From the NCBI GenBank assembly GCA_027306655.1, contig DAHUZL010000067.1, positions 1 through 38,648 on the forward strand: a stretch of DNA of 38,648 nt, written 5' to 3'. The stretch comes from Candidatus Dormiibacterota bacterium (GTDB taxonomy: Bacteria; Chloroflexota; Dormibacteria; Aeolococcales; Bog-877). Each line of letters begins with the position of its first letter. The first letter of the stretch is position 1. Of this stretch, positions 11,337 through 38,648 are shown piece by piece. Position numbers and translations under genes: made by a program. The notes beneath the pieces were generated by a model, which saw only the letters and a list, made by a program, of their open reading frames with translations, searched no databases and was not told the origin of the DNA.

Positions 11337-11726
11337 TCAGCCGGGGCCGCCCCCCGCCTCCCCGGGCGGGTCCGGGACGCCCCCGCCCGGGCGCGGCCCC
11401 GGCCGGGGCCCGAGCGCGCGCAGTCGCTCGACGAGGATCTCGGTCGTGGTGCGGCGCAGCCCGTCCTGGGCGTCCCACTCCCGGGTCTGGAGGCGGCCCT
11501 CCAGGTAGACCTGGCGGCCGCTGTCGAGGATGTCGGCGCACACCTCCGCCAGCCGGCCGAAGGCGACCGCTGAGTGGTACTGCACGTCGTCCATGCGGTG
11601 ACCCTGGTCGTCGCGCCAGCTGGAGTTGGTGGCGACGCGCAGACGGGTGATGGCGAGACCGCGCGTCGAGCGACTCAGCTCCGGCGCGCGGCAGAGGTTG
11701 CCGACCAGGATCACCCGGTTGATCAC
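11337..11726 (-). CDS. ssb: Single-stranded DNA-binding protein without acidic tip
   Basis: A 129-residue SSB. The OB fold is clear: INRVILVGNLCRAPELS, ITRLRVATNSSW, YHSAVAFGRLAEVC, GRQVYLEGRLQTREW and a closing TTEILVERLRAL. After about residue 105 there is only a short proline/glycine-rich tail ending PPGEAGGGPG, so the acidic DDDIPF-like tip that recruits replication and repair partners in housekeeping SSBs is missing. The GTG start overlaps the stop of the VirB6-like gene (GTGA, 11723-11726), so it is translated as part of that operon. This suggests an SSB dedicated to the secretion-like machine rather than the replicative one. Confidence 0.9.
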   Translation of the reverse strand: MINRVILVGNLCRAPELSRSTRGLAITRLRVATNSSWRDDQGHRMDDVQYHSAVAFGRLAEVCADILDSGRQVYLEGRLQTREWDAQDGLRRTTTEILVERLRALGPRPGPRPGGGVPDPPGEAGGGPG

Positions 11727-12667
11727 GCCATCGGCTCCAACCGCGCCAGCACCAGGCGACGGGCCGAGCGTTCCAGGCGGCGCCCCGCCGCGGCGGCGCG
11801 CCGCTCCCAGTGCTGGGCGCCGCCGAGGGCGCCGGGGACGCGCAGCATGATGTACAGGGCGGCGAGCGAGTAGAGGATCGAGACCAGGCTCTGGCCGTCG
11901 GCGATCGTGAGCGTCACCGCCACCCGCAGCACCAGCAGCTGCACGAACTGCATGAACAGGGTGGCGAGGAAGAGACGACCCCACTGACGGCTGTACCCGC
12001 GTGTCTCCGGGAGCACGTGCAGGAGCGCCGCCAGCGGCGCGACCACGCAGAGGACGGTGAGCAGGGTGGCCCGCACCACGTAGGCGAGGGCGAGCAGCAC
12101 CAGCGCGATCACCATCAGCGCGGTGAGGACGAGAAGGAAGAGGTTCTGGGAGGCGGTCTGGAGGGCCGGCCCGGCGAGCGGGTCCGCCCAGGGGAGGCTC
12201 GCCGGCCCCACCGCCCCCTGGCCGACGGCGAGGCTGCAGAGAGCGTTCTCCAGGTCGACCGCCATCTGGATCAGCGGCAGGGACCAGCGCATCAGGACCA
12301 CCGCCACCAGGAGCCGCGGCAGCACCACCTGAAGGGTGTGCTGGACGTCGAGGCGGTGGTCGACGACCGTGCGCAGGCAGCTGTAGAGGAAGACCGCGGC
12401 GAGGAGGGCGGTCCCGGCCTCCGCCGTCAGCGAGTTCAGCGCCACGATGGCGGTGTTCGACGTGAACGGGGCGGCCTGGCCCGGGCGGGCGACGTCGTAG
12501 GTGCCGAAGAGGTACGTCGTGAGCACGCCGTCGATCGTGTGCCGGGCCGAGGCCACGAACTGGAGCAGTCCCCCCTCGACCAGGCGGACCACGAACGCCA
12601 CCGGGTCGAAGCTGAACAGCGGGGCCGCCGCCCGGGCGACCGGGGCGCCGAGGCCGGCCGGCGTCAC
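11723..12667 (-). CDS. VirB6/TrbL-like polytopic membrane protein
   Basis: A 314-residue protein starting at GTG 12667 (MTPAGLGAPVARAAAPLF), where the codon overlaps the stop of the small gene upstream. An N-terminal region ending near residue 60 is followed by about six hydrophobic helices, among them TALLAAVFLYSCLRTVV, FLLVLTALMVIALVLLALAY and LLHVLPETRG, then FLATLFMQFVQLLVLRVAV. This helix arrangement resembles VirB6/TrbL, the inner-membrane pore component of type IV secretion. Assignment is by topology and by its place between a VirB2-like gene and ssb, since this family has poor sequence motifs. The final 40 residues are basic. Confidence 0.72.
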   Translation of the reverse strand: MTPAGLGAPVARAAAPLFSFDPVAFVVRLVEGGLLQFVASARHTIDGVLTTYLFGTYDVARPGQAAPFTSNTAIVALNSLTAEAGTALLAAVFLYSCLRTVVDHRLDVQHTLQVVLPRLLVAVVLMRWSLPLIQMAVDLENALCSLAVGQGAVGPASLPWADPLAGPALQTASQNLFLLVLTALMVIALVLLALAYVVRATLLTVLCVVAPLAALLHVLPETRGYSRQWGRLFLATLFMQFVQLLVLRVAVTLTIADGQSLVSILYSLAALYIMLRVPGALGGAQHWERRAAAAGRRLERSARRLVLARLEPMA

Positions 12668-12903
12668 GACAGGCCGTGGGGGACCAGGCCGAGCAGGATG
12701 TGGCTGAAGACGCCGGCCAGCTCGACCCCGATCGTCCCCACCGCGATCCGCCCCAGCCACCGCTGGGCCTCCGACGCGCTGTGGGGATGGACCGCGACCA
12801 CCCGCCAGATGAAGGCGCAGACGAACGCCAGCGTGCCGAGGCTCCCGATGACCCCCTGGCCCAGGGAGATCCAGCTGTTGAGCAGCGCCGTCAGGGTGGG
12901 CAT
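12664..12903 (-). CDS. VirB2/TrbC-like small two-helix membrane protein
   Basis: A 79-residue protein with two membrane helices (about residues 17-38, GVIGSLGTLAFVCAFIWRVV, and 50-72, RIAVGTIGVELAGVFSHILL) and a short polar loop between them. Size, topology and position immediately before a VirB6-like gene match VirB2/TrbC pilin-type subunits, although no cleavable signal peptide is obvious and sequence similarity cannot be checked here. It is the first gene of a three-gene operon with the VirB6-like gene and ssb, all joined by GTGA overlaps. A palindrome lies 20 bases upstream of the ATG. Confidence 0.65.
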   Translation of the reverse strand: MPTLTALLNSWISLGQGVIGSLGTLAFVCAFIWRVVAVHPHSASEAQRWLGRIAVGTIGVELAGVFSHILLGLVPHGLS

Positions 12904-12922
12904 GGGTTGTGTCCTCGCAGAA

Positions 12923-12936
12923 CGACAGTCCTGTCG
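12923..12936. promoter_or_regulatory. Palindrome upstream of the VirB2-like operon
   Basis: CGACAG-TC-CTGTCG is a perfect 6-bp inverted repeat, centred about 26 bases before the ATG at 12903. It could be an operator for a dimeric repressor or a small RNA hairpin in the leader. A clear -10/-35 pair was not found nearby, so its role is open. Confidence 0.35.
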
Positions 12937-12976
12937 CTCTGGGTCCCGCGCCGGTCTCGGAACGGGGCGGTCCCCG

Positions 12977-13444: not shown

Positions 13445-13457
13445 CGTGGGGCGACCG

Positions 13458-14054
13458 TCAGACGATCGCGCGCAGGCCGCGGTACATCCGCATCGCCTCC
13501 GCCTCGGCCTCGAGGAAGCCCGCTGCCTGGGCGCGCAGTCCCTCCAGGCTGAAGCCCCAGCTCCCGGGCGGGCCGCCCGGGCCGGGCAGGGTCGCGCGCC
13601 GATAGCGGGGCGGGTAGAACGTGATCGTCCCGCCGGGAAGTCTCTTCTGGACCGGACGTGCCACCATCAGCTCGTCCAGGCTCTGCCGCCCCACCGGTTC
13701 GCCACCCTCGAGCTCGAGCCAGCGCTGCTTGCGGATCGGGTTGCCGTCGTCGCGCAGCGCGGCCCGCCCGCCGAAGCGGCGGGTGAGATCCACCAGGATG
13801 AACAGCACCGCCAGGGCGTCGGTCTCGTCACCGCAGGGGCGGACGAACCCGGCGCCGGTGACCGCGCGGTCGGACTCCCGCCGGACGTGACGGAGATACT
13901 CCATCTCGAAGAGCCCGCGCGCGCCGTCGGTCGCGAGCCACATCGGCTGGCTCCGCCATCCCCGCGCCGCGGCACTCTCCGCGACCGCCGCCTGCCACTG
14001 GTCCGGGCCGCCGGCGCCCGGCTCCACCACCCGGTAGAAGACGACCCGGAGCAT
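13458..14054 (-). CDS. Conserved-looking protein of unknown function
   Basis: A 198-residue protein beginning [16 protein letters not shown]. It has an even mixture of helix- and strand-forming segments, including [33 protein letters not shown] and [14 protein letters not shown] do not recognise the family and see no catalytic motif. It has no membrane segment or signal peptide, so it is probably cytoplasmic. It is the first gene of a two-gene unit with dtd (13-nt gap). Its ATG lies exactly six bases after a TACACT hexamer, implying a leaderless transcript. Linkage to dtd hints at translation or D-amino-acid quality control, but that is only an association. Confidence 0.7.
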
Positions 14055-14066
14055 GGCCCAAGTGTA
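14055..14066 (-). promoter_or_regulatory. Leaderless-type promoter upstream of the 14054 gene and dtd
   Basis: TACACT (minus strand, 14066-14061), six bases (TGGGCC), then the ATG at 14054. No Shine-Dalgarno sequence lies between them and no strong -35 match is seen. Spacing equals that at ispH, vapB, the XRE gene and the response regulator gene. Confidence 0.5.
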
Positions 14067-14534: not shown

Positions 14535-14579
14535 GGTCACCTCCCCTAGTCCTCCCCGCCAGGGACGGAGGACCACGCG

Positions 14580-14767: not shown

Positions 14768-16759
14768 TCAGTCCCCGCGGCCGCTGCCCCGGTGGCGGTG
14801 GTGCGCCTCCAGGATCATGTGGTGGAGCGGCGGCGCCTGCACCACGACCGGGGTGCGCTCGTCGGCGCTGACCAGCAGGAACTCCCCCCGGCGGCAGTCC
14901 TCGATCGCCTCCCGCTGGGCCGCGGTGAGCGACAGCGCCCGCTGGAGGCGGTCGGCGTCGTGGCCGTGGTGGCTGCCGAGAAGAAGGGTCGCCGCGTTGC
15001 CGGTGAGGACCTCCCCCGCGGCCGACCCCAGCAGGTCGCCGACGTTCTGGGTCACGAAGACGAGCGATCCCTGGTACTTGCGGATCCGCCGGGCGAGCTG
15101 GGCCAGCAGCCGTCGCAGCGGCTCGTGCTCCAGGAGCAGCCCGGCCTCGTCGAGGATGACATGGCGCGGACGGGGGTGGCCCCGCACCAGGCCCCACAGC
15201 CAGCCGGCGATCAGGACCGTGGCCGACGGGAGCCACTCGGTGGGGCAGTCGCGAAGTCCGATCCCGGTGAGCGGTCCGGCGGCGGTCAGGGTGGACGGCC
15301 GGCTGAAGAGGAGGCCTGCGCGCCCCACCGTCCACCGCTCGAGCAGGGTCGGCACCCGGTCCTCGGGCCAGCGGTCCCCGAGGGTGCGCCGCAGGTCGGC
15401 GAGCGTCGCCGGTCCGTCGCGGGCGGTGGCGAGGACCGCTCGCGCGGCGCCCTCGACCCGGGCCCGCTCCAGGTCGGTCAGCCCTCCGCACATCGCGCCC
15501 ACCACCTCGGCGGCCACGATCACCGACTCCTCGGGCCCGGCCAGCTCGAAGAGGTTGAGCGCGGCGGTGTCCGGACCCCCGATCTCGACGTACGCGCCGC
15601 CCGCGGCACGGCACAGCTCCCGGTGCTCGCCCTCCGGGTCGACCACCACGCTCTCGATCCCGCGGCAGAGATCCTCCAGCGCCAGCAGGCCGGCCAGGTA
15701 CGACTTGCCCCCGCCGGAGGCGGCCACGATGCCGCAGTTGGCGTTGGCGCGGCGCCGGGTGTCGAAGAGGTCGAGCTGGCAGAGCGCGCCGGTTCGGCGA
15801 TGGCGCCCGAGCAGCGCTCCGGCCCCGGGCGGCCGCCCCGCATCGACCCACGGCCAGCAGGTGCTGAGGGCGTCGGTGTCGACCAGCCGCAGCGGCCCCG
15901 CCGGCGGCTCGCCCCGCGCGAGGGTGTCGCGGCGCGCTCGGCGCTGGTCGAAGGTCGCCGGGCGCGCGTCGCCGAGGAGCCCCCGCACCCGCCCGACGGC
16001 GGTGTCGACGAGGCGCGCCACCGCCGCCGCGGAGTCCGCCGTGACGGTCAGGGTGAGGGCGCACTCGAACGCGCGCACCTCGTCGCCGGCGAGGCGGCGG
16101 CGGAGGGTCCGGATCGCGCTCGCGCCGGCGTCCAGGCGGGGATCTCCCTCGTCACCCTGCTCGGCCTCGACCAGGCGGGCGGTGTGGACGACCCGCTCGG
16201 CCCGCTCCAGCTGGCGCTGGGCGCTGGCCTGGGGCCGGGGCCGGACGTAGAGGCTCAAATCCTGATCGCCGGCGAGGCCCACGAGCTCCCAGAGCCATCC
16301 CGGCTCCACTGGGCGGCCCGGGAGACGGTGAAGTCGGAGGGAGGCGAACCATGTCGACGCCACCCGGAGGTGGCGCGCCGACTCCACAGCGTCGCCGGCG
16401 TCGGACGCGAGCCGGTCCGGCTCACACGGCTCCACCCCCATCCCCAGTCGCCCCAACCCGTCCGCGGCGGCGGCGGCCGCCACCGCCGTCTCCCGGTCGG
16501 GAACCGCGACCACCAGGTGGACGTGGCGATCGAAGGCCGGCCGCTCCCGCAGTGACGCGGCGAGGTGCCGCCGGCGGTCGTGATCCAGGCGCGCCGGCAG
16601 CGAGCCGCCCGAATCACCGCCCGCCGCCGGAGGGAGGAGCCGGCGCACCGTCACCAGCAGCTGAACCGGCACGGTGAGCGCATCCAGCCACGCGGCGAAC
16701 GCCACCCGACGGCGCTCGCGGTCGGCGGGCTCCAGCTCGACCGCGTCGGGGGCGGTCAC
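14768..16759 (-). CDS. VirB4-type secretion ATPase, paralogue 1
   Basis: A 663-residue VirB4/TraC-like ATPase. The N-terminal half (AWLDALTVPVQLLVTVRR near residue 23) is the docking domain. The C-terminal half is a RecA-like motor with Walker A AASGGGKSY (about 346-354), VVVDPEGEH, NLFEL, a Walker B-like HVILDEAGLLL (about 530-540) and the glutamine-bearing LVFVTQNVGDLL. It should power a membrane-bound type IV secretion-like complex. The GTG at 16759 lies 43 bases after the PrgI-MinD fusion gene. It is a paralogue of the 799-residue ATPase encoded at 35503-37902, with which it shares WLD-LTVPV and NAN before Walker A, and it is about 135 residues shorter. Confidence 0.9.
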   Translation of the reverse strand: MTAPDAVELEPADRERRRVAFAAWLDALTVPVQLLVTVRRLLPPAAGGDSGGSLPARLDHDRRRHLAASLRERPAFDRHVHLVVAVPDRETAVAAAAAADGLGRLGMGVEPCEPDRLASDAGDAVESARHLRVASTWFASLRLHRLPGRPVEPGWLWELVGLAGDQDLSLYVRPRPQASAQRQLERAERVVHTARLVEAEQGDEGDPRLDAGASAIRTLRRRLAGDEVRAFECALTLTVTADSAAAVARLVDTAVGRVRGLLGDARPATFDQRRARRDTLARGEPPAGPLRLVDTDALSTCWPWVDAGRPPGAGALLGRHRRTGALCQLDLFDTRRRANANCGIVAASGGGKSYLAGLLALEDLCRGIESVVVDPEGEHRELCRAAGGAYVEIGGPDTAALNLFELAGPEESVIVAAEVVGAMCGGLTDLERARVEGAARAVLATARDGPATLADLRRTLGDRWPEDRVPTLLERWTVGRAGLLFSRPSTLTAAGPLTGIGLRDCPTEWLPSATVLIAGWLWGLVRGHPRPRHVILDEAGLLLEHEPLRRLLAQLARRIRKYQGSLVFVTQNVGDLLGSAAGEVLTGNAATLLLGSHHGHDADRLQRALSLTAAQREAIEDCRRGEFLLVSADERTPVVVQAPPLHHMILEAHHRHRGSGRGD

Positions 16760-16802: not shown

Positions 16803-17993
16803 TCAGCTGGCGGCGGCGACGCGGGACTCCGGGCTCCCGATCGCGACCACCCCCGGCATCACCGCCGCCGCCAGCGCGGCGAGCCCCCCCGGGGCGGGCC
16901 CCCGGCCGTCGAGCACGGCCGGCACATGGCTCCGCTCAGCCCACTCGAAGCGGGGGTCGGATGCCACCCGGGCGGCGACGCCCGGCTCCAGGGGCCGGCT
17001 CTCGTCCTCGCCCGCGCTCCGATTGTGGACGACGTGGAGGCGGGCCCCCGGCGCCGCCCGGCGCACGGCGTCCAGGGTTCGGACCGCGTCGTGGACCGCG
17101 CTCGGGGCGGGGGTGAGCACCACGACGACGTCGTGGGCCGCCATCAGCAGAGGGCGGGTGACGGGGGTGAGACCAGGCCCGAGGTCGAGCACCGCCGCCT
17201 GCACGCCGGTACGGTCGAGGGCGTGGACCACCGCCAGGATCCGGTCGGGGACGCGGTCGTCCGGATCGGCCGGGGCGGCGGGTGGCGCCAGGAGCGCCTC
17301 CAGCCGCGACCCGGGGTGGCGCACGAGGGCGCGCCGCACCCGCTCCGGCGACAGCGGCCCCGGCCCGAGGAGGTCGGCCAGGGACGGGCCGCCGAGTCCC
17401 AGGCGGTGCGCCACCGCGCCGGCGTCGAGGTCGAGGTCCACCAGGGCCACCCGCAGCGGGACCGCGCGCGCTGTCCCCGCGCGCACCCGTCCGTGGTGGG
17501 CGAGGAGGGTGGCGGTCTCGGTGGCGAGCGTCGTCCGTCCGACACCCCCCTTCAGGCTGAAGAAGGCGATCCGCCGGGTGCCGCCGAGGAAGGGGGGCGG
17601 ATCCTGGCCCGCCGTCCCCACGCCCGGTGCGGGCGCCGATCCCCGCGCCAGGACCTGGAGGCGGACCGGATCCGGAGCGAGGCCCCGCGCCGGCGGACGC
17701 GTCGGGGCCGGCGGCACCGCCCGCCGGGCCGCCCATCGCCGCACGGCAAAGCCGGCCACCAGCGGGACCCACTCGAGAGCCGGGCGGCCGCCGAGGTGAC
17801 CCCATGCCATCCCCGCTGCCCCTGCCATGACGCCCACCGTGAGGGCGGCCCGGAGGGCCGCCGGTCCCGGCGCGCTCCAGCAGGCCATCGCCAGGACCAC
17901 CCCGCCCGCCGCGACCAGGAGCCGCGGTGCCGGGAGGCCGAAGGCCACCCGATCCTCCGGGTCCACCCCCTCCACGATCCGGATCCCTGCCAC
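16803..17993 (-). CDS. PrgI-like membrane domain fused to a MinD/ParA-type ATPase
   Basis: A 396-residue protein with two parts. Residues 1-90 (VDPEDRVAFGLPAPRLLV, two hydrophobic helices around 22-40 and 47-66, then GGRPALEWVPLVAGFAVRR) look like a PrgI-family protein of Gram-positive type IV secretion systems. After a proline-rich linker, residues 141-396 form a SIMIBI P-loop domain: FFSLKGGVGRTTLATETATLL with deviant Walker A KGGVGRTT (148-155), VALVDLDLDAGAVAHRLGL, and further LDLGPGLTPVTRPLL. In the Walker A motif arginine replaces the lysine that precedes the threonines, as in some TadZ/CpaE-like proteins. The GTG start has a strong AGGAGGGAG site but is enclosed in an RNA hairpin. The gene precedes VirB4 paralogue 1. 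Confidence 0.82.
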   Translation of the reverse strand: MAGIRIVEGVDPEDRVAFGLPAPRLLVAAGGVVLAMACWSAPGPAALRAALTVGVMAGAAGMAWGHLGGRPALEWVPLVAGFAVRRWAARRAVPPAPTRPPARGLAPDPVRLQVLARGSAPAPGVGTAGQDPPPFLGGTRRIAFFSLKGGVGRTTLATETATLLAHHGRVRAGTARAVPLRVALVDLDLDAGAVAHRLGLGGPSLADLLGPGPLSPERVRRALVRHPGSRLEALLAPPAAPADPDDRVPDRILAVVHALDRTGVQAAVLDLGPGLTPVTRPLLMAAHDVVVVLTPAPSAVHDAVRTLDAVRRAAPGARLHVVHNRSAGEDESRPLEPGVAARVASDPRFEWAERSHVPAVLDGRGPAPGGLAALAAAVMPGVVAIGSPESRVAAAS

Positions 17994-26220: not shown

Positions 26221-27685
26221 CGGAGGTCCCCGGTCGAGCGGGGGGGTTGCGCCAGCAGTCGAGGATCAGGCCGGCCACCAGCGCGGCCCGTGCCGGGAGC
26301 TCCGCGGGCAGGATCCACTCCCCCTGCGCGTGGGCGTTGCCGCCGACGATCCCGAGCCCGTCGAGGGTGGGCACGCCGAGGGCGCCCGTGAGGTTGCCAT
26401 CGCTGCCTCCCCCGACCTCGGCCCCCTCCAGAGGCGGCCAGCCGAGGGCCGCGGCCACCTGCGCGGCGCGGGCGAAGAGATGGGCGGTCGCGGTCCGCTC
26501 CAGGGGTGGACGGTTGATCCCGCCGGTCACCTCCAGGCGGGCCTCGGGATGGAGCGGACGCAGTCCGCGCAGGGCGCTCGACACCCGCTCCCCCTCCCCG
26601 GCGGTGCGGACCCGGACGTCGATCTCGGCGGTGGCGAGGGCCGGAACCACATTGGACCGGGTGCCGCCGCGCACCACTCCCACCGTCACCGTGGTGCCGG
26701 CGCCGGGGTCGGCCAGCGCCGCCACCCGGGGGACCTGAGCGGCCAGCTCGACGACCGCGTTGACCCCCCGCTCCGGCTCGATCCCGGCGTGGGCGGCCCG
26801 CCCGCTCACGGTGAGGCGGAACTCCCCCACCGCCTTGCGGCCCACCTTCACGGCGCGGCCCACGGGCGGCTCCAGCACCAGGACGGCGTCGTGGTCGCGG
26901 GCGGCGGCCTCGATCAGGTCGCGCGACCCCTGGCTCCCCACCTCCTCGTCCCCGGTGAGGAGCACGGTCGCCGGCCCGTCCGCTCCCGACCGGGCCCGCA
27001 GCGCGGCGAGCGCCGCGCAGGCGACCACGACCCCGCCCTTCATGTCGAAGACGCCCGGGCCGAGGAGCCGGTCCCCGTCGCGGCCGAGCATCGGCGCGAA
27101 GCTGCCCCGGTCCCACACCGTGTCGACGTGGCAGAGGAGGAGGACCCCGCGGTCCCCGGAGCCGGCCCGGAGCCGGCGCGCGGGGGCGGTGACCCCGGGC
27201 CCGGGCGCGTCTGTGAGCCCGGCCAGCTCCACGAACGCGGTCGCGGCCCGGTCCGCGCACCGCGCGACCGCCTCGGGGTCGTCGCTGGGAGACTCCAGTC
27301 GAACCAGCTCCTCCAACGTGCGCAGCCAGTCCGGCTGGCGCGCCGCCAGCCAGGCCTGGATCCCCTGGAGCTCGCCGGCCGCACCCGCACCCGGCTCGGT
27401 CACGGCCGGACCGGGCCGCCCGGGTGCACCGGCGCGGCCGCTCCGTCCCGTCTCCCCCTGTCCCTCCCCCCCATCGTCCCCGATCGTACCAGGGGTCCCG
27501 GCGACCGCCCCCTCGGCCGGTGCCGTCACTGGGGGCGGCGTCGGGTCGAACCGCGGAGCCGGCACCCCGAACAGGCGTCCGACCAGGAGCACCATCCCCT
27601 GCGCCTCCTCGCGGAAGCGGCTGCGGCGCCAGCCGGGGTGGCGGAGGAGGCGGGCGAACGGGCCCGGCCGTCCCGGCTCAGGCAC
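26213..27685 (-). CDS. M20-family metallopeptidase (carboxypeptidase G2-like)
   Basis: The M20 domain occupies the last 396 residues: LLLCHVDTVWDRGSF (metal HxD), GPGVFDMKGG, LLTGDEEVGSQGSRD (catalytic and metal glutamates), the dimerisation segment GRAAHAGIEPERGVNAV, then GGGSDGNLTGALGVPT and a late histidine in GNAHAQGEW. These enzymes remove a C-terminal residue or an N-acyl group; with the coupled racemase an N-acylamino-acid desuccinylase role is plausible. The frame begins at GTG 27685, overlapping the transglycosylase stop. A GTG at 27403 would give the standard family length and lies about 77 bases downstream of the start point expected from a TACGAT hexamer (27492-27487). The extra 94 residues (EEAQGMVLLVGRLFGVP plus a low-complexity linker) have good codon usage and may be real. 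Confidence 0.88.
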   Translation of the reverse strand: MPEPGRPGPFARLLRHPGWRRSRFREEAQGMVLLVGRLFGVPAPRFDPTPPPVTAPAEGAVAGTPGTIGDDGGEGQGETGRSGRAGAPGRPGPAVTEPGAGAAGELQGIQAWLAARQPDWLRTLEELVRLESPSDDPEAVARCADRAATAFVELAGLTDAPGPGVTAPARRLRAGSGDRGVLLLCHVDTVWDRGSFAPMLGRDGDRLLGPGVFDMKGGVVVACAALAALRARSGADGPATVLLTGDEEVGSQGSRDLIEAAARDHDAVLVLEPPVGRAVKVGRKAVGEFRLTVSGRAAHAGIEPERGVNAVVELAAQVPRVAALADPGAGTTVTVGVVRGGTRSNVVPALATAEIDVRVRTAGEGERVSSALRGLRPLHPEARLEVTGGINRPPLERTATAHLFARAAQVAAALGWPPLEGAEVGGGSDGNLTGALGVPTLDGLGIVGGNAHAQGEWILPAELPARAALVAGLILDCWRNPPARPGTSGG

Positions 27686-28409
27686 AGGCCCACTGGCCGG
27701 ACTCGCCCGCCGCGAACATCGCGGCGGCGACGTCGGCCTGCTGGACGGCCGACCAGATGTCGGTTCCCCCGTGGCTGTAGAAGGTGCTGGGGAGGAACTG
27801 GAAGACCCCCGACGCTCCCGAGGAGCCGTTGACCGCGAGGGGGTTCAGGCCCGATTCGCAGGTGGCCACGCCGAGGAGCCAGCTGTAGGAGACCCCGTAG
27901 CGTCGGGCGGCGGCGAAGATGTCCGCCGCAACCGTCCCGGGGGGAGGAACGGCCACGATCTGCGCGCGCGGGCTGACGGCCGCGCTCGGCTGGGCGGTGG
28001 CGGTGGCGCGCACCGCCGGGGTCGCCGTCGCGGTGGCGGGCGGGGCGGCCGTCGGGGTGGCGGTCGGACGGGGGGCGGGGCTCGCGGCCGCCCTCCGGCT
28101 CGAACGGACCCGCCCGCGGTGTCCGGGCACCGCCGGCGACGCCGTAGGGCGGGGCAGGGTCAGCTGGAAGCCCTGGCTGGGCACCAGGTTGCGCGCCGCC
28201 TCCGCCAGGCTCGAGAGGGCCGCCGGAGACGGTCCCGTGATCGCAGCCGGCACGCCCCCGACGCCGAGCACGCCGACCACCGGCGTGCCGGCGAGGGCGA
28301 ACGCCCCCCCCGCCAGCCACCGCAGTCGCCCGGCGAGCCGGCGGACCCGGCGCGTCGGCCGGCTGCGATCAGCCGGGGCCGTAGATGAACCCCAGGAGGG
28401 AATCACCAC
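27678..28409 (-). CDS. Lytic transglycosylase (SLT domain) with signal region
   Basis: A 243-residue protein. A basic stretch and one hydrophobic segment (WLAGGAFALAGTPVVGVLGVG, about residues 31-51) suggest export or membrane anchoring. A proline/threonine/alanine-rich linker (residues 85-145) leads into a compact SLT domain: ADIFAAARRYGVSYSWLLGV, ATCESGLNPLAV with the catalytic glutamate, SSGASGVFQFLPSTFYSHGG, and a closing QWACA. This family cleaves the peptidoglycan glycan strand. It starts at GTG 28409 (or 28406), inside the end of the CHAP gene (41-nt overlap), and overlaps the M20 gene at its own end. This makes it the second gene of a wall-degradation operon. Confidence 0.88.
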   Translation of the reverse strand: MVIPSWGSSTAPADRSRPTRRVRRLAGRLRWLAGGAFALAGTPVVGVLGVGGVPAAITGPSPAALSSLAEAARNLVPSQGFQLTLPRPTASPAVPGHRGRVRSSRRAAASPAPRPTATPTAAPPATATATPAVRATATAQPSAAVSPRAQIVAVPPPGTVAADIFAAARRYGVSYSWLLGVATCESGLNPLAVNGSSGASGVFQFLPSTFYSHGGTDIWSAVQQADVAAAMFAAGESGQWACA

Positions 28410-29430
28410 CGTCGGGGACCCAGCGGTAATCGACCTGGTCCCACCCGCCGAAATTCATCTCGGCGACCTCGAACTGGCCGTTGCCCACCCCCACCACGTA
28501 GGCGACGTGGCCGAGCGGGCTGATGCCGCTGGTCCCGAAGACCGCGATCGCCCCCACCGTGGGAATCTCCCCCTCCGCGAAGCCGGAGGCGGCGGCGGCC
28601 CCCCACCACTGCCAGGCATCGCCGAACCAGGGGACGTAGCGCTGGGTGGCGACGTACCAGGTGCACTCGCCGAATGCGAAGTGGTTTCCCCAGCTGCCCG
28701 GGGTCAGGGACGTGAGCGGCTGGGCCACCGGAGGGAGGATGCTGGCGAGGGCGCCGAGATCGCTGCGGGCGGCGGCCGGCGCCTGCGCGTAGGCGACATC
28801 GCGCTGGGCCGTGGCCGCCAGGAGCTCCTGGGCCTGGGTCCCGAGCTGGGTTTCGGCGCCCACCGCCCGGCGCTCGTCCACCCGCAGCACCAGCGCGGCG
28901 CGGCGGGCGATGATCTCGGCCGAGCGGATCTGGGTGACCAGGTCGCTGAGGTTGGTGGCAGTGGCGGCCGGGAGGCTGCTCCGGCTCATGAAGGCCCCGA
29001 TGCTCGGTGCGGCCAGGGCGGCCGCGACCCCGGCGGGCCCGCTGGCGTCGAGGTAGGCGGCGCGGATCGCGGTCGCCAGCGCCAGCCGGTCGGCCGAGAG
29101 CCCCTGGGTGAGGCGGCTCTCCAGCACCACGGTCGCCGCCAGGTGGTTGTCGAGGGCCTGGAGCGATGACTGGTTGGCGCCGATCGCCATCAGCAGCCGA
29201 TGGACGCGCAGCTCCGCGGCCACCGCCCCGCCCGCCCGAAGCTGGTCGAGGCGGGCGATCAGCTGGTGCTGATCGGCCACCCCACGCCCGTGCGCGAGCG
29301 CCGCCGCTCCGGCCGGGGTGCTGAGGGGATCGCGAGCTGCGCGCACCGGCAGCAGGGTGCCGATCACCAGGATCGACAGCGCCGCCGTCACCGCCAGCGG
29401 CGCACGGATCCCATGGAGCATCCCGCGCAT
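28369..29430 (-). CDS. Secreted CHAP-domain cell-wall hydrolase with coiled-coil region
   Basis: A 353-residue exported protein. An N-terminal signal or anchor helix (APLAVTAALSILVIGTLLP) is followed by a long helical, coiled-coil-like region (about residues 30-225, such as HQLIARLDQLRAGGAVAAEL). The C-terminal CHAP domain (about 235-353) has the catalytic cysteine in GECTWYVATQRYVPW, the histidine in LGHVAYVVGVG and the acidic/polar residue in EVAEMNFGG. CHAP enzymes are amidases or endopeptidases of peptidoglycan. The ATG at 29430 has a good Shine-Dalgarno GGGAGGA and a TTGACC-N18-TACGGT promoter upstream. It heads the operon with the transglycosylase, M20 and racemase genes and resembles the CHAP protein at 34139-34911. 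Confidence 0.9.
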   Translation of the reverse strand: MRGMLHGIRAPLAVTAALSILVIGTLLPVRAARDPLSTPAGAAALAHGRGVADQHQLIARLDQLRAGGAVAAELRVHRLLMAIGANQSSLQALDNHLAATVVLESRLTQGLSADRLALATAIRAAYLDASGPAGVAAALAAPSIGAFMSRSSLPAATATNLSDLVTQIRSAEIIARRAALVLRVDERRAVGAETQLGTQAQELLAATAQRDVAYAQAPAAARSDLGALASILPPVAQPLTSLTPGSWGNHFAFGECTWYVATQRYVPWFGDAWQWWGAAAASGFAEGEIPTVGAIAVFGTSGISPLGHVAYVVGVGNGQFEVAEMNFGGWDQVDYRWVPDGGDSLLGFIYGPG

Positions 29431-32652: not shown

Positions 32653-32913
32653 TCAGCCCGAACGCCGCACCAGCGAGCGGGTCCGCCGCTGCGCCGTCGC
32701 ATGCAGCCCGACCAGCGCCCGCAGGGTGTCCTCGGCGGCGTCGCGCAGCGCCTGCCCGCTGGTGGCCGCCTCCGGGGCGTCGAGCGTCTCGCAGAGCGCC
32801 GCCAGCCGGTCGACCCGGCGCAGCACTCCGCGAGCCTCGCGGACGGCGACCGCGAGCGCCTGGACCGAGGCCGCCCCCCGGAGCGTCTCCTCCGGGTCGC
32901 GCCCCGCGGTCAT
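32653..32913 (-). CDS. Small helical protein of unknown function
   Basis: An 86-residue protein, MTAGRDPEETLRGAASVQAL at the start, rich in alanine, arginine and glutamate and predicted wholly helical (VREARGVLRRVDRLAALCE, LRDAAEDTLRALVGLHATAQ). It has no membrane segment and no recognised family. The ATG overlaps the stop of the MFS gene by four bases (ATGA, 32910-32913), which indicates translational coupling and supports it as a real gene. The same frame is open far upstream through the transporter gene, but that part is not protein-like. It converges on the prenyltransferase gene with a 9-base gap. Confidence 0.6.
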   Translation of the reverse strand: MTAGRDPEETLRGAASVQALAVAVREARGVLRRVDRLAALCETLDAPEAATSGQALRDAAEDTLRALVGLHATAQRRTRSLVRRSG

Positions 32914-34142
32914 GCGGCCGCCGTCGCGGGCGGCCGCCGTCGCCGTGCCGGCACCAGGATGAGCCCGGCGGCGACGTAGGAGGCGCCCATCATCAGGAAC
33001 CCGGCCCCGAACCCCGCATGCTGGATGAGGAATCCGAGCGCGATCACCCACAGCGAGCCGATCCCGTACGTGATCGCGAAATAGTACCCGAACACGGTCG
33101 CCTGCGCTTCCCGCTGCACCGCCTCGCTGAGCAGCGCCTGCAGCAGCGGGTTCTCGGCGTAGGCGACGAGGCCGACCGCGAAGGTGAGGGGGACGAGGAC
33201 GTCGACGCGGTGCGCCGCCACCCCGTACAGGCTGACCACCACCGCCGACAGCCCGAAGGCGACCCAGAGCACGCGGCGGCGGCCGAAGCGGTCGGAGAGG
33301 GCGCCCGCCGCCAGCGGCCCGAGCACCCCACCCGCGAGCATGAGGCTGAAGAGGAGGCCCACCACGATGGTGGGCAGGCGGACGCCGTCGCGCAGGTACA
33401 GCGGCACGAACGCGCTCAGGGTGCCGAGCCCGCGGCCGCCCGCGGCCACCAGCGACGCCAGGATCACCCACAGCGCCATCCGCCGGTCCAGCAGCCGGGG
33501 GCGGCGCCCCGGCGGCCGCGGCTCGGCCGGGCGGTGGCGCCGCGAGATGTCGGCGCTGCGGGGGAAGCGGGCCAGGAACCAGCACCCCATCAGCACCATC
33601 GGGACCGCGAACACGAACAGGGTGCCCCGCCACCCGATGTGGACGATGAGGAGGGCGGCGGGCACCGGCACCAGCAGCGATCCGATGTTGCCGCCGATCA
33701 CATGGGTGCTGAGCGCGAGCCCGCGCCGCTCCGGATAGCGGCGCGAGAGGACGGCGCTCCCCACCGCGTGCTGCTGGCTCGCCACCACCTGGCTGAGACC
33801 GCGCACCGCGGCCCAGGGGACGAACGCCGGACTCAGTCCGCCCAGGCTGGCGCACAGTCCGAGCAGCACGTTCTGGCCGCCCAGGATGAACCGGGTCGGC
33901 GCGTGACGGCTGACCAGGCCCGCGGTCGCCTGCATGCCGCCGCCGACCACGCCCACCAGGCCCAGGCCGAGGCCGAGGGCCGCGTAGCTCAGGTGGAAGG
34001 TGGCCACCACGGCGGGGTAGGTGAGCGGGAGAAGCGCGGAATACATGTGCTGGGTGGCGTGCGACGCGCTCACCAGGGTGAGGGTCCGCCGCTCCCGCCC
34101 CAGTCCCGGCGGGGCCGCCGCCCGGTCGGCCTCCGCTGTCAC
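32910..34142 (-). CDS. MFS transporter (fosmidomycin-resistance-like)
   Basis: A 410-residue protein with about 12 membrane helices in two halves separated by a basic loop (about residues 190-220, RRHRPAEPRPPGRRPRLLD). The N terminus SASHATQHMYSALLPLTYPA, then LSYAALGLGLGLVG, resembles the Fsr (fosmidomycin resistance) branch. A typical MFS loop motif, GALSDRFGRRRVLW, is present in the second half. The substrate is unknown. The GTG at 34142 is chosen because a TATGCT hexamer ends eight bases before it, so the transcript may be leaderless or nearly so. The start also touches a possible stop (TGA 34141-34139) of the preceding CHAP gene. The 86-residue gene is coupled to its end. Confidence 0.88.
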   Translation of the reverse strand: MTAEADRAAAPPGLGRERRTLTLVSASHATQHMYSALLPLTYPAVVATFHLSYAALGLGLGLVGVVGGGMQATAGLVSRHAPTRFILGGQNVLLGLCASLGGLSPAFVPWAAVRGLSQVVASQQHAVGSAVLSRRYPERRGLALSTHVIGGNIGSLLVPVPAALLIVHIGWRGTLFVFAVPMVLMGCWFLARFPRSADISRRHRPAEPRPPGRRPRLLDRRMALWVILASLVAAGGRGLGTLSAFVPLYLRDGVRLPTIVVGLLFSLMLAGGVLGPLAAGALSDRFGRRRVLWVAFGLSAVVVSLYGVAAHRVDVLVPLTFAVGLVAYAENPLLQALLSEAVQREAQATVFGYYFAITYGIGSLWVIALGFLIQHAGFGAGFLMMGASYVAAGLILVPARRRRPPATAAA

Positions 34143-34911
34143 CGCCCGCCAGCATAGGGGGTCCCCCGCCGGCCCCCCGGGCCGGGGCGACGGCGGCCGG
34201 GGCGACGGTGGGCGCCGCCGTCGCCGGGCCGGCAGGGCCGTCGATGAAGCCGGCCAGGGCCTCCTGCGGGCTTCCGCTGGAGCCGGCGGCCACCCACCGC
34301 AGGTCGACGTACGGCCAGCGCGGGCCGAGGTCGAGCCAGTTGGCCTCGGCGACGGTGTAGCTGCCGTCGCCGGCCACGCCGACCACGAAGGCGACGTGAC
34401 CGGGCCCGGCGTCGGTGTCGACGGCGATGGCGCCGAGCGAGGGCAGCGCTCCGATCGCGTACCCGGCCTGGGCAGCCCCGTCGAGCCAGGTTCCCGCATT
34501 GCCACCGAGCGCCCCGGTGGGGCCGCGCCAGGTGACCAGCCGGCGGGTGGCCACGTACCAGGTGCACTGGCCCGTCGCGAACCCCTGGTACCCCGCCGGG
34601 AAGGGCAGCGGGTGGCCGGTGCACGCCGACGGCTGCACCGCGAGGGCCCCTGGCTCCGGCCCGCAGGGCTGGGCGAAGGCCGGGAAGTCCGGGGCGGTGG
34701 CCTGGAGCTGGCCGCCGGGCGGGAGCATGAATCCGCCAGGCTGGAGTGTGAGCGGCCCGATCGCGCCGGCGCCGGACAGCAGCCCCGATCCGCCCGCCAG
34801 CCCTTCGAGCGCGCCGGTGGCGGCGACCATCAGCGCCAGCCCCACCACCACCGCCAGGGCGGTCAGGCCGGCGCAGCCCGACCCGACCGATCGCAGCCAG
34901 TCAGAAGGCAT
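34139..34911 (-). CDS. Exported CHAP-domain hydrolase, apparent frameshift near the 3' end
   Basis: Starts at ATG 34911, overlapping the M23 stop by 11 bases. An N-terminal membrane or signal helix (LTALAVVVGLALMVAATGAL) is followed by a spacer and a CHAP domain with the cysteine in TGQCTWYVATRRLVTW, the histidine in GPGHVAFVVGVAGDG and VAEANWLDLG, closely similar to the CHAP domain at 28369-29430. The recognisable protein ends with AGFIDGP near 34230. In this frame no stop occurs before or inside the MFS gene. One missing base in the G/C runs between 34142 and 34230 would restore a TGA at 34141-34139, overlapping the MFS start in the GTGA manner common here. I give that end as the likely native one. 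Confidence 0.75.
34151..34156 (-). promoter_or_regulatory. -10 element close to the MFS start
   Basis: TATGCT (minus strand, 34156-34151) with eight bases to the GTG at 34142. If used, the MFS mRNA would start at or one to two bases before the start codon. It lies inside the 3' end of the upstream CHAP gene, so it would be an internal promoter. Confidence 0.4.
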
Positions 34912-35506
34912 AGCGGACGGGCCGGCCCAGGGTGGGGGACGGGTCGATCGCGTGCCCGGGCCAGTGGGAGGGCGGCACCGCACGGATCAGCGGTTCGTCC
35001 ACCTCCACCTGGTAGTGGAGATGGGGGCCGGTGGTGAGGCCGGTGGCGCCCTCCCAGCCCAGGAGCCGGCCCGGCGGGGCCCAGGCCCCGAGCCGGAGCG
35101 GGGCGATCCGCTCGAGGTGCGCGTAGAGGACGCGGGTCCCCAGCCGCTGGAGCCAGACGGTGAGGCCGAGCGGCCACAGACGGCCGAGGAACACCACCTG
35201 GCCGTCGAGGGTGGAGCGCACCGGTGTCCCTGCCGGGCAGACCAGGTCGATCCCGTCATGCACGAGGCCGGTCGCGCGGCGGTAGCGGGGGTCGTGGAAG
35301 CCGGCCGATTCGACCAGGCCCGCGCAGACCATCGGCAGCCCGTGCGGGAGCGGCCCGCCTCCGCCCCGGGCCGCCGGCGGGCGAGCACCGGGGGCCGCGT
35401 GCCAGATCGGGAGGATGAGCGAGCCCAGCCCGAGGAGGATGCAGGTGCAGAGCGTGAGGCCGGAGGGGCGCGGGCCACGGGGTGGGCCGGGGCCGGGCTC
35501 GGTCAC
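34901..35506 (-). CDS. Membrane-anchored M23-type peptidase (LytM-like)
   Basis: A 201-residue protein with an N-terminal membrane segment (GLTLCTCILLGLGSLILPIW, about residues 17-36) and a C-terminal M23 domain. The zinc-site residues are HDGIDLVCPAGTPV (H and D) and the terminal GPHLHYQVEV (HxH), with VRSTLDGQVVFLG and VLYAHLERI between them. M23 enzymes cut peptidoglycan cross-links; in secretion systems they open the wall for the channel. The GTG start overlaps the stop of VirB4 paralogue 2 (GTGA, 35503-35506), and the CHAP gene starts inside its own end. It is therefore the wall-opening component of the operon. Confidence 0.9.
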   Translation of the reverse strand: MTEPGPGPPRGPRPSGLTLCTCILLGLGSLILPIWHAAPGARPPAARGGGGPLPHGLPMVCAGLVESAGFHDPRYRRATGLVHDGIDLVCPAGTPVRSTLDGQVVFLGRLWPLGLTVWLQRLGTRVLYAHLERIAPLRLGAWAPPGRLLGWEGATGLTTGPHLHYQVEVDEPLIRAVPPSHWPGHAIDPSPTLGRPVRYAF

Positions 35507-37902
35507 ACCACGCCCCCGGTCTCGGCCGGGTGGGTGGTGATCCATCGGTGGAGCCGAGGCGAGGCCAGGCCGCGGACCGCGGCCTGGTCGGTCCCCACCA
35601 CCACCAGGCCGCACCCCGGGCCCGCGTGCTGAAGCAGGTCCGCGGCGCCGCGGGAGAGGCCGAAGGCCTCGGCGACCCGGGCGAGCGCCACCGGCTCCTG
35701 GCGGAGCAGCACCTTGGTGTGGCTGTTGCGCACGATCACGCTGCCGGAGGGGGACCCGAGCAGGTCTTCCACCACCTGGGAGATGACCAGCAGGCCGGCC
35801 CCGTACTTGCGCAGGCGCCGGCTCATCCCCTCCAGCGCCACCGCGCTGGGGCGATGGCGGAGCAGGACCTCGGCCTCGTCGACCACCAGAAGGCGGCGGG
35901 GCCCGGGGCGGCGGAGGAGCTCGCCTTGGAGGTGCCCCAGCAGCATCGAGACGACGGCGGGGAGAAGCGCGTCGCCGTAGGCGGCGAGCGACCGGAGCCC
36001 GAACGCGACGATCGGCGCATCGAGGCGCACCGTCGTCGGCTGGTCGAGCAGCGAGCCGTACGCCCCCTCGGTGAAGCGGCGCAGCCGGCCGGCGAGCCCG
36101 CGCGTGCGTCCGGCCTCGAGCCGGGCCACCAGGTCCTGGAGCCGAGGCTGGGCCGACGGGTCCGGATCCGGGTCGCGCCCGGGGAGGCCGGCTGCCGCGT
36201 AGAGGGCCAGCAGGGACGCCTCGAGCGCCGCGACCTCGCCGGGTCGGAGCTCCGGGTCTCGGTGCGGGCCCGCCGGGCGCCCCGCCAGCAGGGTGAGGAC
36301 CGGCAGGAGCCGGGCCACCGTGTCGCGCCGGGCGGCGAGGGGATCGGCCCCCGGCGGCGCATGCAGGTCGAGCGGGTTGACCCGGCTCGCCGATCCCAGC
36401 CCGACCGCGAGCACCTCGCCGCCGAGCCCGCCCACGAGGGTGCGGTATTCGTCGGCCGGGTCGATGCAGCGGACGTGCACCCCCTCCGCCGCGCACTTGG
36501 CGACCAGCAGCTTGGCCGTGTACGACTTCCCGGCCCCCGAGGTCCCCACCAGCACCGCGTTGGCGTTGGGGTGTCCCGATGCGAAGGGGTCGAGGAACAC
36601 AAGGCCGCTCTCCAGGAGGTTGGAGCCGAGCAGGACGCCGCCCGAGGTGGGCAGCCCGTTGCGAAGGAACGGGAACGCCGTCGCCAGGGCGCTGGAGGGG
36701 ACGTCGCGCACCCAGCCCAGCGGCGAGAGCCCGATCGGCTGCGTCGCGCGCCAGCCGTCCAGCTGGCGGTGGCGCAGCCAGCTCCCGTGGCAGCCGAGCT
36801 CGGCGAGCCGGGCGCCGAGGGCCGCGCAGCGCTCGCCGAGCTCGTCCAGGGTGGGGGCGAGGACGGTCGCCCCCACCTCGAGGTGGAACAGCCGCTCCTC
36901 GTCCAGGAGGACCTGCTCCTCCAGCCGGGTCGCGTCGGCGAGGACGGTCCGGGTGCCGGAGTCGGTGCGCCGGCCCTGGAGCGTGTCCACCACCTGGGTG
37001 GTCTCGAAGCCGCGGATCTTGCGGCGGAGGTGGCCGAGCACGACCGATTTGGGGAGCGGCCGGATGTGCAGCGCCACCCGCTGGGGATGGCCGAAGCCGC
37101 CGAGGAGGGGACCGAGCCATCCCATCCGGACCGTGCGCGGGTAGCCGGTGACGACCAGACTGCGGCAGAACGCCCCGTCGACGACAAGGTGATCGGCGCG
37201 GACCTGGAGCCGTGACGGCGCCAGCCATCCGGCGAAGGTGGCGGGTTCGCCCCCGCTCCGCCCCCCGTGGGTGTGCTGCAGGAGGCCGAACCAGGCCGCG
37301 TCGTCGAGCCGACCCGCACCGACCCCGACCCGGCGCAGACCGTCGAGGAGCGTGGCGCTGCGCTCCCGCAGCTCGGGACCTGCTCGGTCCCCGACGGCCG
37401 GAGCGGCGGGGCCGGCCGCCGCGCGCCCGCGGGCCGCCGCGATCGCGACCAGACGGCGCCAGGTCCCGGCCGGCCGGACCCCCGGGGCGGCGGCCGCCAG
37501 CACCACCAGGAAGCGGGCCTGGAGGAGCTGGTGTTCGCGCAGATGGGCAGCGACCACCTCGGCCTCCTCGCGGATCCACGGCCCCAGCTGGGGCGTGAGC
37601 GGGCGGGCGGCGCACTGGCGGTAGTGGGCGGCCAGGGGCGCGGGGTCGAGGGCCTCGGTGACGACGTGGAGGGAGACCGGGACGGTGAGCCCGTCGAGCC
37701 ACTGCCGGTAGGCGGAGTAGACCTCGGCCTGCTCCGCCGGACGGCGCAGCAGGAGGCTGAGCGGACGCACCTCCAGCGCCGCCCGGGCGCTGCCGTCGCG
37801 AAGACGGAGCGTGCCGTCGCTGAGATCGACCGCGTCGACCACGGTCGACGACTCCCCCCGTCGCCGGTCGCCGCCGCCGGGCCGGGAGCGCCTCAGCGGC
37901 AT
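35503..37902 (-). CDS. VirB4-type secretion ATPase, paralogue 2
   Basis: A 799-residue VirB4/TraC-like ATPase. The N-terminal domain includes LEVRPLSLLLRRPAEQAEVY and QWLDGLTVPVSLHVVTE. The motor has Walker A VGTSGAGKSYTAKLL (about residues 452-460), HVRCIDPADEY, VNPLDLH, Walker B RRLLVVDEAEVLL (about 665-677) and LLVISQVVEDLLGSPSG. This is the standard energiser of type IV secretion and conjugation, attached to the inner membrane. Its ATG overlaps the end of the PrgI-like gene by ten bases, and the next gene is coupled by GTGA, so the order PrgI, VirB4, M23, CHAP is one translation-linked unit. It is about 135 residues longer than paralogue 1 at the N-terminal side. Confidence 0.93.
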   Translation of the reverse strand: MPLRRSRPGGGDRRRGESSTVVDAVDLSDGTLRLRDGSARAALEVRPLSLLLRRPAEQAEVYSAYRQWLDGLTVPVSLHVVTEALDPAPLAAHYRQCAARPLTPQLGPWIREEAEVVAAHLREHQLLQARFLVVLAAAAPGVRPAGTWRRLVAIAAARGRAAAGPAAPAVGDRAGPELRERSATLLDGLRRVGVGAGRLDDAAWFGLLQHTHGGRSGGEPATFAGWLAPSRLQVRADHLVVDGAFCRSLVVTGYPRTVRMGWLGPLLGGFGHPQRVALHIRPLPKSVVLGHLRRKIRGFETTQVVDTLQGRRTDSGTRTVLADATRLEEQVLLDEERLFHLEVGATVLAPTLDELGERCAALGARLAELGCHGSWLRHRQLDGWRATQPIGLSPLGWVRDVPSSALATAFPFLRNGLPTSGGVLLGSNLLESGLVFLDPFASGHPNANAVLVGTSGAGKSYTAKLLVAKCAAEGVHVRCIDPADEYRTLVGGLGGEVLAVGLGSASRVNPLDLHAPPGADPLAARRDTVARLLPVLTLLAGRPAGPHRDPELRPGEVAALEASLLALYAAAGLPGRDPDPDPSAQPRLQDLVARLEAGRTRGLAGRLRRFTEGAYGSLLDQPTTVRLDAPIVAFGLRSLAAYGDALLPAVVSMLLGHLQGELLRRPGPRRLLVVDEAEVLLRHRPSAVALEGMSRRLRKYGAGLLVISQVVEDLLGSPSGSVIVRNSHTKVLLRQEPVALARVAEAFGLSRGAADLLQHAGPGCGLVVVGTDQAAVRGLASPRLHRWITTHPAETGGVV

Positions 37903-38261
37903 CCGCCCCGCCCCGCGGCGACCTCGATCCCGGCCGGGTCGATCCGCCGCCAGCCGCGCCGATCACTCGGGGCCGCGCGCGCGATCGGGTGACCCAGCTC
38001 GCGGGGCTGGCGGTGGAAGCGGGCCCAGTCTGAGACCCAGGCGGCCGCCGGGCGCCCCTCCGGCCGGGCGAACGCGGCGACCAGCCCGGCCAGGGTGGTG
38101 GGCAGGCTGAGCCCCGCCCCGGCGGCACCGGAGAGGTGCAGGCGGACCAGGAGCAGGAACGGCCCGGCGGCGGCGACGGAGCACCAGCCCAGCTGGGCCA
38201 GCGTGAGGGGGCCGAACCGGGTCGAGCTGGCCGTGATCGGCTGGGGGACCTGGGCCTCCAT
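37893..38261 (-). CDS. PrgI-like membrane protein
   Basis: A 122-residue protein. After a short polar start the sequence RFGPLTLAQLGWCSVAAAGPF begins two membrane helices (about residues 22-42 and 48-66), followed by RPEGRPAAAWVSDWARFHRQ, the PrgI-type cytoplasmic end. PrgI-family proteins accompany VirB4 ATPases in Gram-positive and monoderm secretion systems and are thought to correspond to VirB3. It overlaps the VirB4 start by ten bases. A GGGAGG sequence lies about 13 bases before the ATG. It is the counterpart of the PrgI domain that is fused to the MinD/ParA-like ATPase at 16803. Confidence 0.8.
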   Translation of the reverse strand: MEAQVPQPITASSTRFGPLTLAQLGWCSVAAAGPFLLLVRLHLSGAAGAGLSLPTTLAGLVAAFARPEGRPAAAWVSDWARFHRQPRELGHPIARAAPSDRRGWRRIDPAGIEVAAGRGGCR

Positions 38262-38350
38262 CCGGGTGCGCGGACCTCCCTGGGGGGTGATCGATGGCGG
38301 GCGGGGCCCGCCCCGTCACCGTCCCGCAAGGGCCCTCCGATGGGGCGGGG

Positions 38351-38648
38351 TCATGACCGCCGCCGCGCGTCGCGGATGTAGGCGAGGCCGTACCCCGGCA
38401 GCTGGCGCCCGTCGCGGGTGACGTACGCGTCCCCCAGCCGCTCCTGGGCGCGCAGCGCCGCCGGCGTGGGGGCGCCGGCGCGGCCGTGGGCGCGTGCCTG
38501 GCGCTGCCACCGGGCCAGCTCCGCGGGCTCGACCTCGAGCTCCTCGGCGGTCCCCCGGTGTCCGATCGGCCGCTCCGCCAGCTGGGTTCCGACGAAGAGG
38601 GTGTAGCCCCGCCGGTCCAGCAGCGGCGGGCGCGGGCGGGCCGGCCCC
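38351..38648 (-). CDS. Unknown protein, C-terminal 98 residues
   Basis: The frame enters from the right edge and ends with TGA at 38353-38351. The visible part reads RRGYTLFVGTQLAERPIGHR, AEELEVEPAELARWQRQARA and DAYVTRDGRQLPGYGLAYIR, giving a plausible soluble alpha/beta protein with a short basic end. I do not recognise the family. It lies 89 bases upstream of the PrgI-like gene on the same strand and probably belongs to the same secretion operon. No membrane segment is seen in the visible part. Its start and any N-terminal domain are outside the window. Confidence 0.6.
   Translation of the reverse strand, partial: GPARPRPPLLDRRGYTLFVGTQLAERPIGHRGTAEELEVEPAELARWQRQARAHGRAGAPTPAALRAQERLGDAYVTRDGRQLPGYGLAYIRDARRRS

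Follow-up and report, generated by a model that had tools for sequence, protein, structure and literature searches.

A dispersed type IV secretion-like machine on the chromosomes of Dormibacteria and its possible role in the transfer of single-stranded DNA

Genes of the machine in the window

The window analysed here is an entire contig (G000:C213) of 38,648 bp with a GC content of 76%. It carries, on its minus strand, the genes of a type IV secretion system (T4SS)-like machine. The source assembly (G000) is a metagenome-assembled genome (MAG) of 2.8 Mb in 233 contigs, 92% complete, from the Dormibacteria (Chloroflexota/'Dormiibacterota'). We use the name Dormibacteria for this class and label its families f1 (the window's own), f2, f3 and f4. 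The phylum sample consisted of 38 class members, apparently all of them MAGs, and 263 other genomes, including other Chloroflexota-like families. When named genomes were scanned with the profile of VirB4b, one of the two VirB4 ATPases of the window, the nearest kin were Candidatus Dormiibacterota and 'Chloroflexi' MAGs.

Along the minus strand, the contig end holds the tail of a VirB6-like gene, followed by PrgI, VirB4a, an M23 peptidase and a CHAP hydrolase. An MFS transporter, hemE, a secreted CHAP protein and an SLT transglycosylase come after them. Then follow an M20 peptidase, an MR_MLE enzyme, pheA and folB. The next genes are a PrgI-ParA fusion, VirB4b, a conserved protein and dtd. The series ends with a VirB2-like gene, VirB6b (TrbL_4) and a single-stranded DNA-binding protein (SSB). 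A preliminary description of this DNA had named two VirB4 and two PrgI-like proteins, VirB6, a VirB2-like protein, an SSB and M23, CHAP and SLT hydrolases, in minus-strand blocks split by hemE, pheA, folB and dtd. Pfam and NCBIfam profile searches of the window proteins support each of these parts, and the gene order confirms the blocks. The parts are as follows.

38351..38647, minus: probable C-terminal piece of VirB6a, a second VirB6-like protein truncated where the contig stops (placed upstream of PrgI, like its counterpart in relatives)
37893..38261, minus: PrgI/VirB3-like protein, block A (Pfam PrgI 4e-5, 24.5 bits against a cut-off of 27)
35503..37842, minus: VirB4a ATPase, block A (P-loop_TraG 1.9e-13; CD1110 VirB4 1.1e-54)
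34901..35506, minus: M23 peptidase, block A, overlapping the VirB4a stop (Pfam 9.1e-17)
34139..34983, minus: CHAP wall hydrolase of block A with an uncertain 3' end (Pfam CHAP 2.9e-14)
28369..29421, minus: secreted CHAP protein with an N-terminal hydrophobic segment (Pfam CHAP 4.9e-14; syntenic in family f1)
27678..28409, minus: SLT transglycosylase, VirB1-like (Pfam SLT 6e-8; syntenic in family f1)
16803..17993, minus: PrgI/VirB3-like membrane domain fused to a MinD/ParA-type ATPase (profile matches; AlphaFold model against PDB)
14768..16759, minus: VirB4b ATPase, class-wide core (TraG P-loop 7.5e-10; CD1110 VirB4 4.1e-30)
13458..14054, minus: conserved soluble protein without a fold match, beside VirB4b in f1 and f4
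12664..12903, minus: VirB2-like pilin (VirB2b) of 79 aa with two transmembrane (TM) segments, class-wide core (4-bp overlap with the VirB6b start)
11723..12667, minus: VirB6b/TrbL_4, class-wide core (Pfam TrbL_4 2.9e-7; 18 of 19 homologues match)
11337..11726, minus: SSB paralogue with no acidic tip at its C-terminus (Pfam SSB 1.1e-28; 4-bp overlap with the VirB6b stop)

Both VirB4 proteins score under the curated cut-off of the CD1110 VirB4 model, and the PrgI matches of the window fall under that of Pfam. The best PDB match of the VirB4b profile is a VirB4-like protein (4ag5, 2.4e-44). The VirB6b and VirB2b profiles matched no solved structure by sequence. Among the scanned proteins no VirB8/TcpC-like protein was matched by Pfam, a search that a divergent form could escape. 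The reading frame of the block A CHAP gene (32653-34983) runs on over 776 aa, as far as the MFS gene, without meeting a stop, which reflects either an assembly indel or a long overlap.

A class-wide core and an added block in family f1

The class-wide core consists of VirB2b, VirB6b, an M23 peptidase and the tip-less SSB in one operon, with PrgI (fused to ParA or not) and VirB4b at a second locus. This operon, new here, occurs in all four families examined. Outside f1, VirB6b sits at a different chromosomal place from VirB4b, while f1 keeps both loci close. The 79-aa VirB2-like gene lies directly upstream of VirB6b in 31/31 loci. Its product is very strongly conserved across the class (70% mean column identity; ratio of non-synonymous to synonymous substitution rates, Ka/Ks, 0.02-0.06). 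A match to T4SS_pilin was obtained for 6 of 18 homologues (best 7e-4) and none for the window copy itself.

Outside f1, VirB6b is usually followed by M23 and then by the SSB. Besides the window, five f2 loci, 4/4 f3 loci and 4/5 f4 loci contain the SSB; the remaining f4 locus is truncated where its contig stops. The acidic C-terminal tip is missing from all 14 operon SSBs. The comparison set consisted mostly of housekeeping copies from the same or related genomes. Of its 18 SSBs, 16 have DDIPF (or NDIPF) as their last residues; the other two are a copy truncated by a contig end and a further SSB without the tip (L285). The SSB tree splits the operon proteins from the comparison set (91/84). 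The operon SSB is a paralogue separate from the housekeeping SSB. We had considered it a chance neighbour, as it is absent from same-genus and other f1 loci; the same operon in f2, f3 and f4 overturned this idea. The competence SSB of pneumococcus still protects incoming single-stranded DNA with its acidic tail removed (PMC3128108).

Three f3 genomes of genus g20 (G050, G056 and G060; L257-L259) keep the pilin-VirB6-M23-SSB operon, and no VirB4b match was found in them. Loss or divergence of VirB4, or a gap in the assembly, may account for this.

The second PrgI-like protein of the preliminary description (16803-17993) does contain a PrgI domain. We refine it to a fusion with a MinD/ParA-fold ATPase, whose AlphaFold model matched FlhG (1.2e-11) and MinD (1.9e-10) in the PDB. 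The fusion is present in f2, f3 and the f1 genera g1 and g3. PrgI is unfused in f4 and in the f1 genera g2, g4 and g5. A search of open-licence papers found nothing on the T4SS of Dormibacterota or on PrgI-ParA fusions. The conserved protein at 13458-14054, which adjoins VirB4b in f1 and f4, shows 68% mean column identity among 13 homologues. Its AlphaFold (AF2) model is confident (pLDDT 86) and had no PDB fold match below E 0.2.

Family f1 carries an added block, which consists of VirD4, VirB2a, VirB6a, PrgI, VirB4a, M23 and CHAP. In relatives (L063), the coupling protein VirD4, a VirB2-like pilin and a 719-aa VirB6-like protein are placed directly upstream of PrgI-VirB4a. In the window's genome, VirD4, VirB2a and the N-terminal part of VirB6a lie at the end of another contig (G000:C210; L096 10877-15011), where VirB6a runs off the contig. 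This VirD4 has T4SS-DNA_transf and TraG-D_C domains (T4SS-DNA_transf 1.8e-44). VirB2a matches T4SS_pilin slightly under the cut-off (7e-5), and the comparison of its profile with that of VirB2b was not significant. The VirB6a part on C210 has 59.7% identity to residues 40-586 of the L063 protein. The partial gene at the window end weakly matches residues 668-702 of the same 719 aa (E 0.007). We infer from these matches that C210 and C213 join; their ends share no sequence overlap. The statement that the machine has no coupling protein is thus a truncation effect, since the window ends before VirD4, which sits past the contig end on C210 and beside the block in relatives. Altogether, VirD4 was found in 16/18 f1 genomes. 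In f2-f4, which retain the core, its matches are weak or lacking.

Several relatives have a response-regulator receiver (L096 10234-10653) and a PBP1-like transglycosylase (8006-10186) directly upstream of VirD4. These two may regulate or serve the machine.

Vertical inheritance and mobility genes

Eleven f1 genomes share a recurring gene order, read as far as their contigs reach. It runs MoxR-DUF58-ispH-SpoIIM-RDD, then VirB6b-VirB2b-dtd-unknown-VirB4b-PrgI-folB, and then MR_MLE-M20-SLT-CHAP-hemE-MFS-CHAP-M23-VirB4a-PrgI. VirB4a and VirB4b occur together in 17/18 f1 genomes. In a VirB4 tree of 93 rows, VirB4b forms a single clade (SH-aLRT 99), whose branches match families f1-f4. VirB4a forms a single clade (support 100) restricted to f1. 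Both Dormibacteria clades (DormA and DormB) are deep branches outside the plasmid references. The distances of VirB4a and VirB4b correlate with each other (r = 0.955) and with those of HemE (r = 0.91 and 0.94).

VirB4b is present in 35/38 class members, a count that includes one weak match (G021, probably another VirB4), and in 52/263 genomes from the rest of the phylum. Likewise, VirB6b is present in 35/38 class members, all with E <=1e-76. Elsewhere it was matched in 27/263 genomes, none better than 1e-39, and its tree also matches the families. Genus g9 has neither VirB6b nor a strong VirB4b match. The measured parts, with the mis-framed dtd value left out, have Ka/Ks of 0.02-0.44. It means that each of them is under purifying selection.

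The preliminary description took the machine to be chromosomally domesticated. The conserved family gene order, the VirB4 distances that follow housekeeping genes and the class-wide VirB4b and VirB6b indicate that it is no recent element, so its chromosomal domestication and vertical inheritance are well supported. The presence of VirB4b and VirB6b in the class is not patchy, with about 35 of 38 members for each.

Mobility genes point the same way. The relaxase search covered three families, PF03432, PF13814 and PF08751. PF03432 was found in 0/41 genomes searched (the window's genome and relatives); other relaxase families lie outside this search. PF13814 and PF08751 gave no match in G000 or its genus-mate G001 and were found in other relatives; therefore, both searches work there. 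The absence of a relaxase claimed for the window thus extends to the whole assembly for these three families. The window also has no integrase, as claimed, and no tRNA or bordering long repeat; its flanks are housekeeping synteny.

Could the locus still be a mobile, or recently decayed, integrative conjugative element? Every gene is of conjugative descent, and relaxase-bearing elements with related VirB4 genes do occur in the order. For instance, an f2 contig (G018:C59) holds a relaxase and a different, mobile-type VirB4 (L040), which groups with Actinomycete plasmids in the VirB4 tree. The L040 and L177 proteins group with Embleya/Streptomyces plasmids. Therefore, mobile copies exist and can be distinguished from the genes studied here. 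Against a mobile element stand the class-wide vertical pattern, the conserved housekeeping neighbours, the strong purifying selection and the lack of border features in the window and of the searched relaxases in the genome. We consider this explanation extremely unlikely.

The machine probably has two layers, the class-wide core and the family-specific block with VirD4. It could also be argued that there are two unrelated neighbouring machines, an ancient class-wide core for DNA and a VirD4-type block acquired later for a separate job. VirB4a forms its own clade restricted to f1, and block A has its own VirB2, VirB6, PrgI, VirB4 and hydrolases. Moreover, only the core is class-wide. However, wherever the assembly permits, the same contig carries both, separated by 12-19 kb. 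The distances of the two VirB4 proteins also correlate, although shared vertical descent alone would yield this. We regard two separate machines as quite improbable.

Possible cargo and comparison with known systems

We favour, with slightly better than even confidence, a domesticated, chromosomally fixed and vertically inherited T4SS-like machine of monoderm type (CD1110/MPF_FATA-like), which handles single-stranded DNA and is built like the archaeal Ced and Ted systems. The preliminary description had left the cargo between DNA export or uptake and effector delivery. The dedicated SSB conserved in the core tilts this choice tentatively towards DNA.

In this proposed mechanism, the M23, CHAP and SLT hydrolases would open a passage through the wall. 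The conduit and its base would consist of the pilin and VirB6 together with PrgI, and VirB4 would power assembly and transport. The membrane-anchored ParA/MinD part may position the machine or bring the substrate, as has been proposed for VirC1. The cargo would be single-stranded DNA moved without a relaxase, held at the cytoplasmic side by the tip-less SSB. Most likely this would happen while cellular DNA is imported or exchanged, in the manner of archaeal Ced/Ted. The VirD4 block of f1 could act on the donor side, in export, or handle another substrate. For the core, import seems favoured over export because no close VirD4 was found outside f1, as in ComB, which works without VirD4. That no DNA-nicking enzyme was found and that the operon has its own SSB suggest a transfer of DNA from cell to cell that serves the cell itself and not a mobile element.

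By design, Ced and Ted are the nearest systems, likened here by their described parts and not by sequence kinship. Ted loci contain VirB2, VirB6, VirB4 and a VirC1/ParA ATPase, without a relaxase (PMC9905601). Ced has paired VirB4-like and VirB6-like proteins (PMC11868833). Like them, the Dormibacteria machine is chromosomal, has no relaxase found and combines a VirB2-like pilin with VirB6 and VirB4. The paired VirB4-like and VirB6-like proteins recall Ced; the PrgI-ParA fusion recalls the ATPase of Ted, a system that is also dispersed in some species. On the other hand, the Dormibacteria machine is bacterial. Its PrgI/VirB3, wall hydrolases and dedicated SSB set it apart, as does VirD4 in one family. 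A more specific proposal, which we hold tentatively and at somewhat less than even confidence, is a bacterial counterpart of Ced/Ted. It would be an ancient, class-wide and relaxase-free importer or exchanger of single-stranded DNA, with a tip-less SSB and a ParA-fused VirB3. One family would have lost ComEC-type competence and gained a VirD4 half.

Several observations weigh against a DNA cargo and its import. Of the 11 f1 loci read, 10 no longer have the operon SSB, and DprA is above the cut-off in only 3/16 f1 genomes, the window's genome among them. The window's family may therefore have moved away from DNA uptake. ComEC was found in 0/16 f1 genomes searched and in 7/9 of f2, which can mean that transformation was simply lost in f1. 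VirD4 in f1 fits export, of protein or DNA, better than import. SSBs also occur on conjugative plasmids. Furthermore, the relaxase negative covers three families in a 92% complete MAG, and all the support comes from sequences.

The same observations bear on another possibility, the secretion of effectors or antibacterial toxins into neighbouring cells. Here VirD4 would recruit proteins, the hydrolases would give passage and the SSB would be a bystander. A VirD4 with T4SS-DNA_transf/TraG-D_C domains adjoins VirB2a and VirB6a in f1, a family that has largely lost SSB and DprA, and no relaxase of the three families was found. A relaxase-less T4SS serves epibiotic life in Patescibacteria (PMC12102498). 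Nevertheless, the core persists in f2-f4 with VirD4 absent or weak, its operon carries the dedicated SSB in all four families, and the surroundings of the loci showed no recognisable conserved pair of effector and immunity genes. Protein secretion is unlikely on this balance. It is very improbable that the machine is a cargo-free surface pilus used in attachment or in contact between cells. Constraint is strongest on the VirB2-like pilins (Ka/Ks 0.02-0.10), and a transport-free T4SS pilus was proposed for Bartonella Trw (PMC12857230), but such a pilus leaves the dedicated SSB, the ParA fusion and VirD4 unexplained.

The machine also has partial parallels in bacteria. The ComB system of Helicobacter pylori is derived from a T4SS, dedicated to DNA uptake and without VirD4 (PMC12857230); uptake in Dormibacteria would be our inference. 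In contrast, ComB belongs to a diderm, has VirB7-VirB10 and works with ComEC, whereas the Dormibacteria parts are of monoderm type and f1 has no detectable ComEC. The T4SS genes of Rickettsia are likewise scattered over the chromosome (named in PMC12102498), but they represent another T4SS class and host, and we claim no homology.

The T4SS of Patescibacteria (CPR) is chromosomal, mostly without a relaxase, largely inherited within classes and composed of monoderm-type VirB4, PrgI, VirB6 and VirB2-like proteins (PMC12102498). That paper names Dormibacterota merely as a sister lineage. A first homology scan hinted at shared ancestry. For VirB4 the tree rules it out: the CPR rows group in a single clade (99), with neither VirB4a nor VirB4b inside it. 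The VirB2b profile had no match in the Patescibacteria loci read. Because the Dormibacteria VirB4 branches lie outside this clade, such domestication probably happened more than once.

Archaea provide the documented example of a conjugation machine that cells have domesticated to exchange their own DNA, and no further case was known to Beltran et al. 2023 (PMC9905601). The Patescibacteria system is the other chromosomal, relaxase-poor monoderm case, with its substrate unknown. The class-wide core operon with a dedicated SSB offers a concrete and testable bacterial case. If the DNA reading is true, it would give these abundant, uncultivated soil bacteria a route of gene exchange, including the one family in which ComEC was not detected.

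The CD1110/PrgI conjugative elements of Bacillota and Actinomycetota (pMG2200, Embleya plasmid) have the same PrgI, VirB4, VirB6, VirD4 and hydrolase families. Unlike the chromosomal Dormibacteria genes, for which no relaxase was found, they form a single block on plasmids; a relaxase is listed for pMG2200 and a replication-relaxation protein for the Embleya block.

We also observed two further groups of VirB4 genes. Some f2 genomes (G020, G023 and G026; L042, L044, L045 and L053) have another VirB4, with a PrgI-like N-terminal part fused to it. Genes for a small TM protein, a VirB6-like protein and M23 accompany it, and in L045 an SSB, ParB and a transposase are near. The Patescibacteria T4SS paper reported no VirB3-VirB4 fusions in its own set (PMC12102498). 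Finally, a Streptomyces megaplasmid (L211; NZ_CP081497.1 2180396-2194138) contains unannotated VirB4 and TrbL genes, which are related to the Embleya plasmid block with the replication-relaxation protein.

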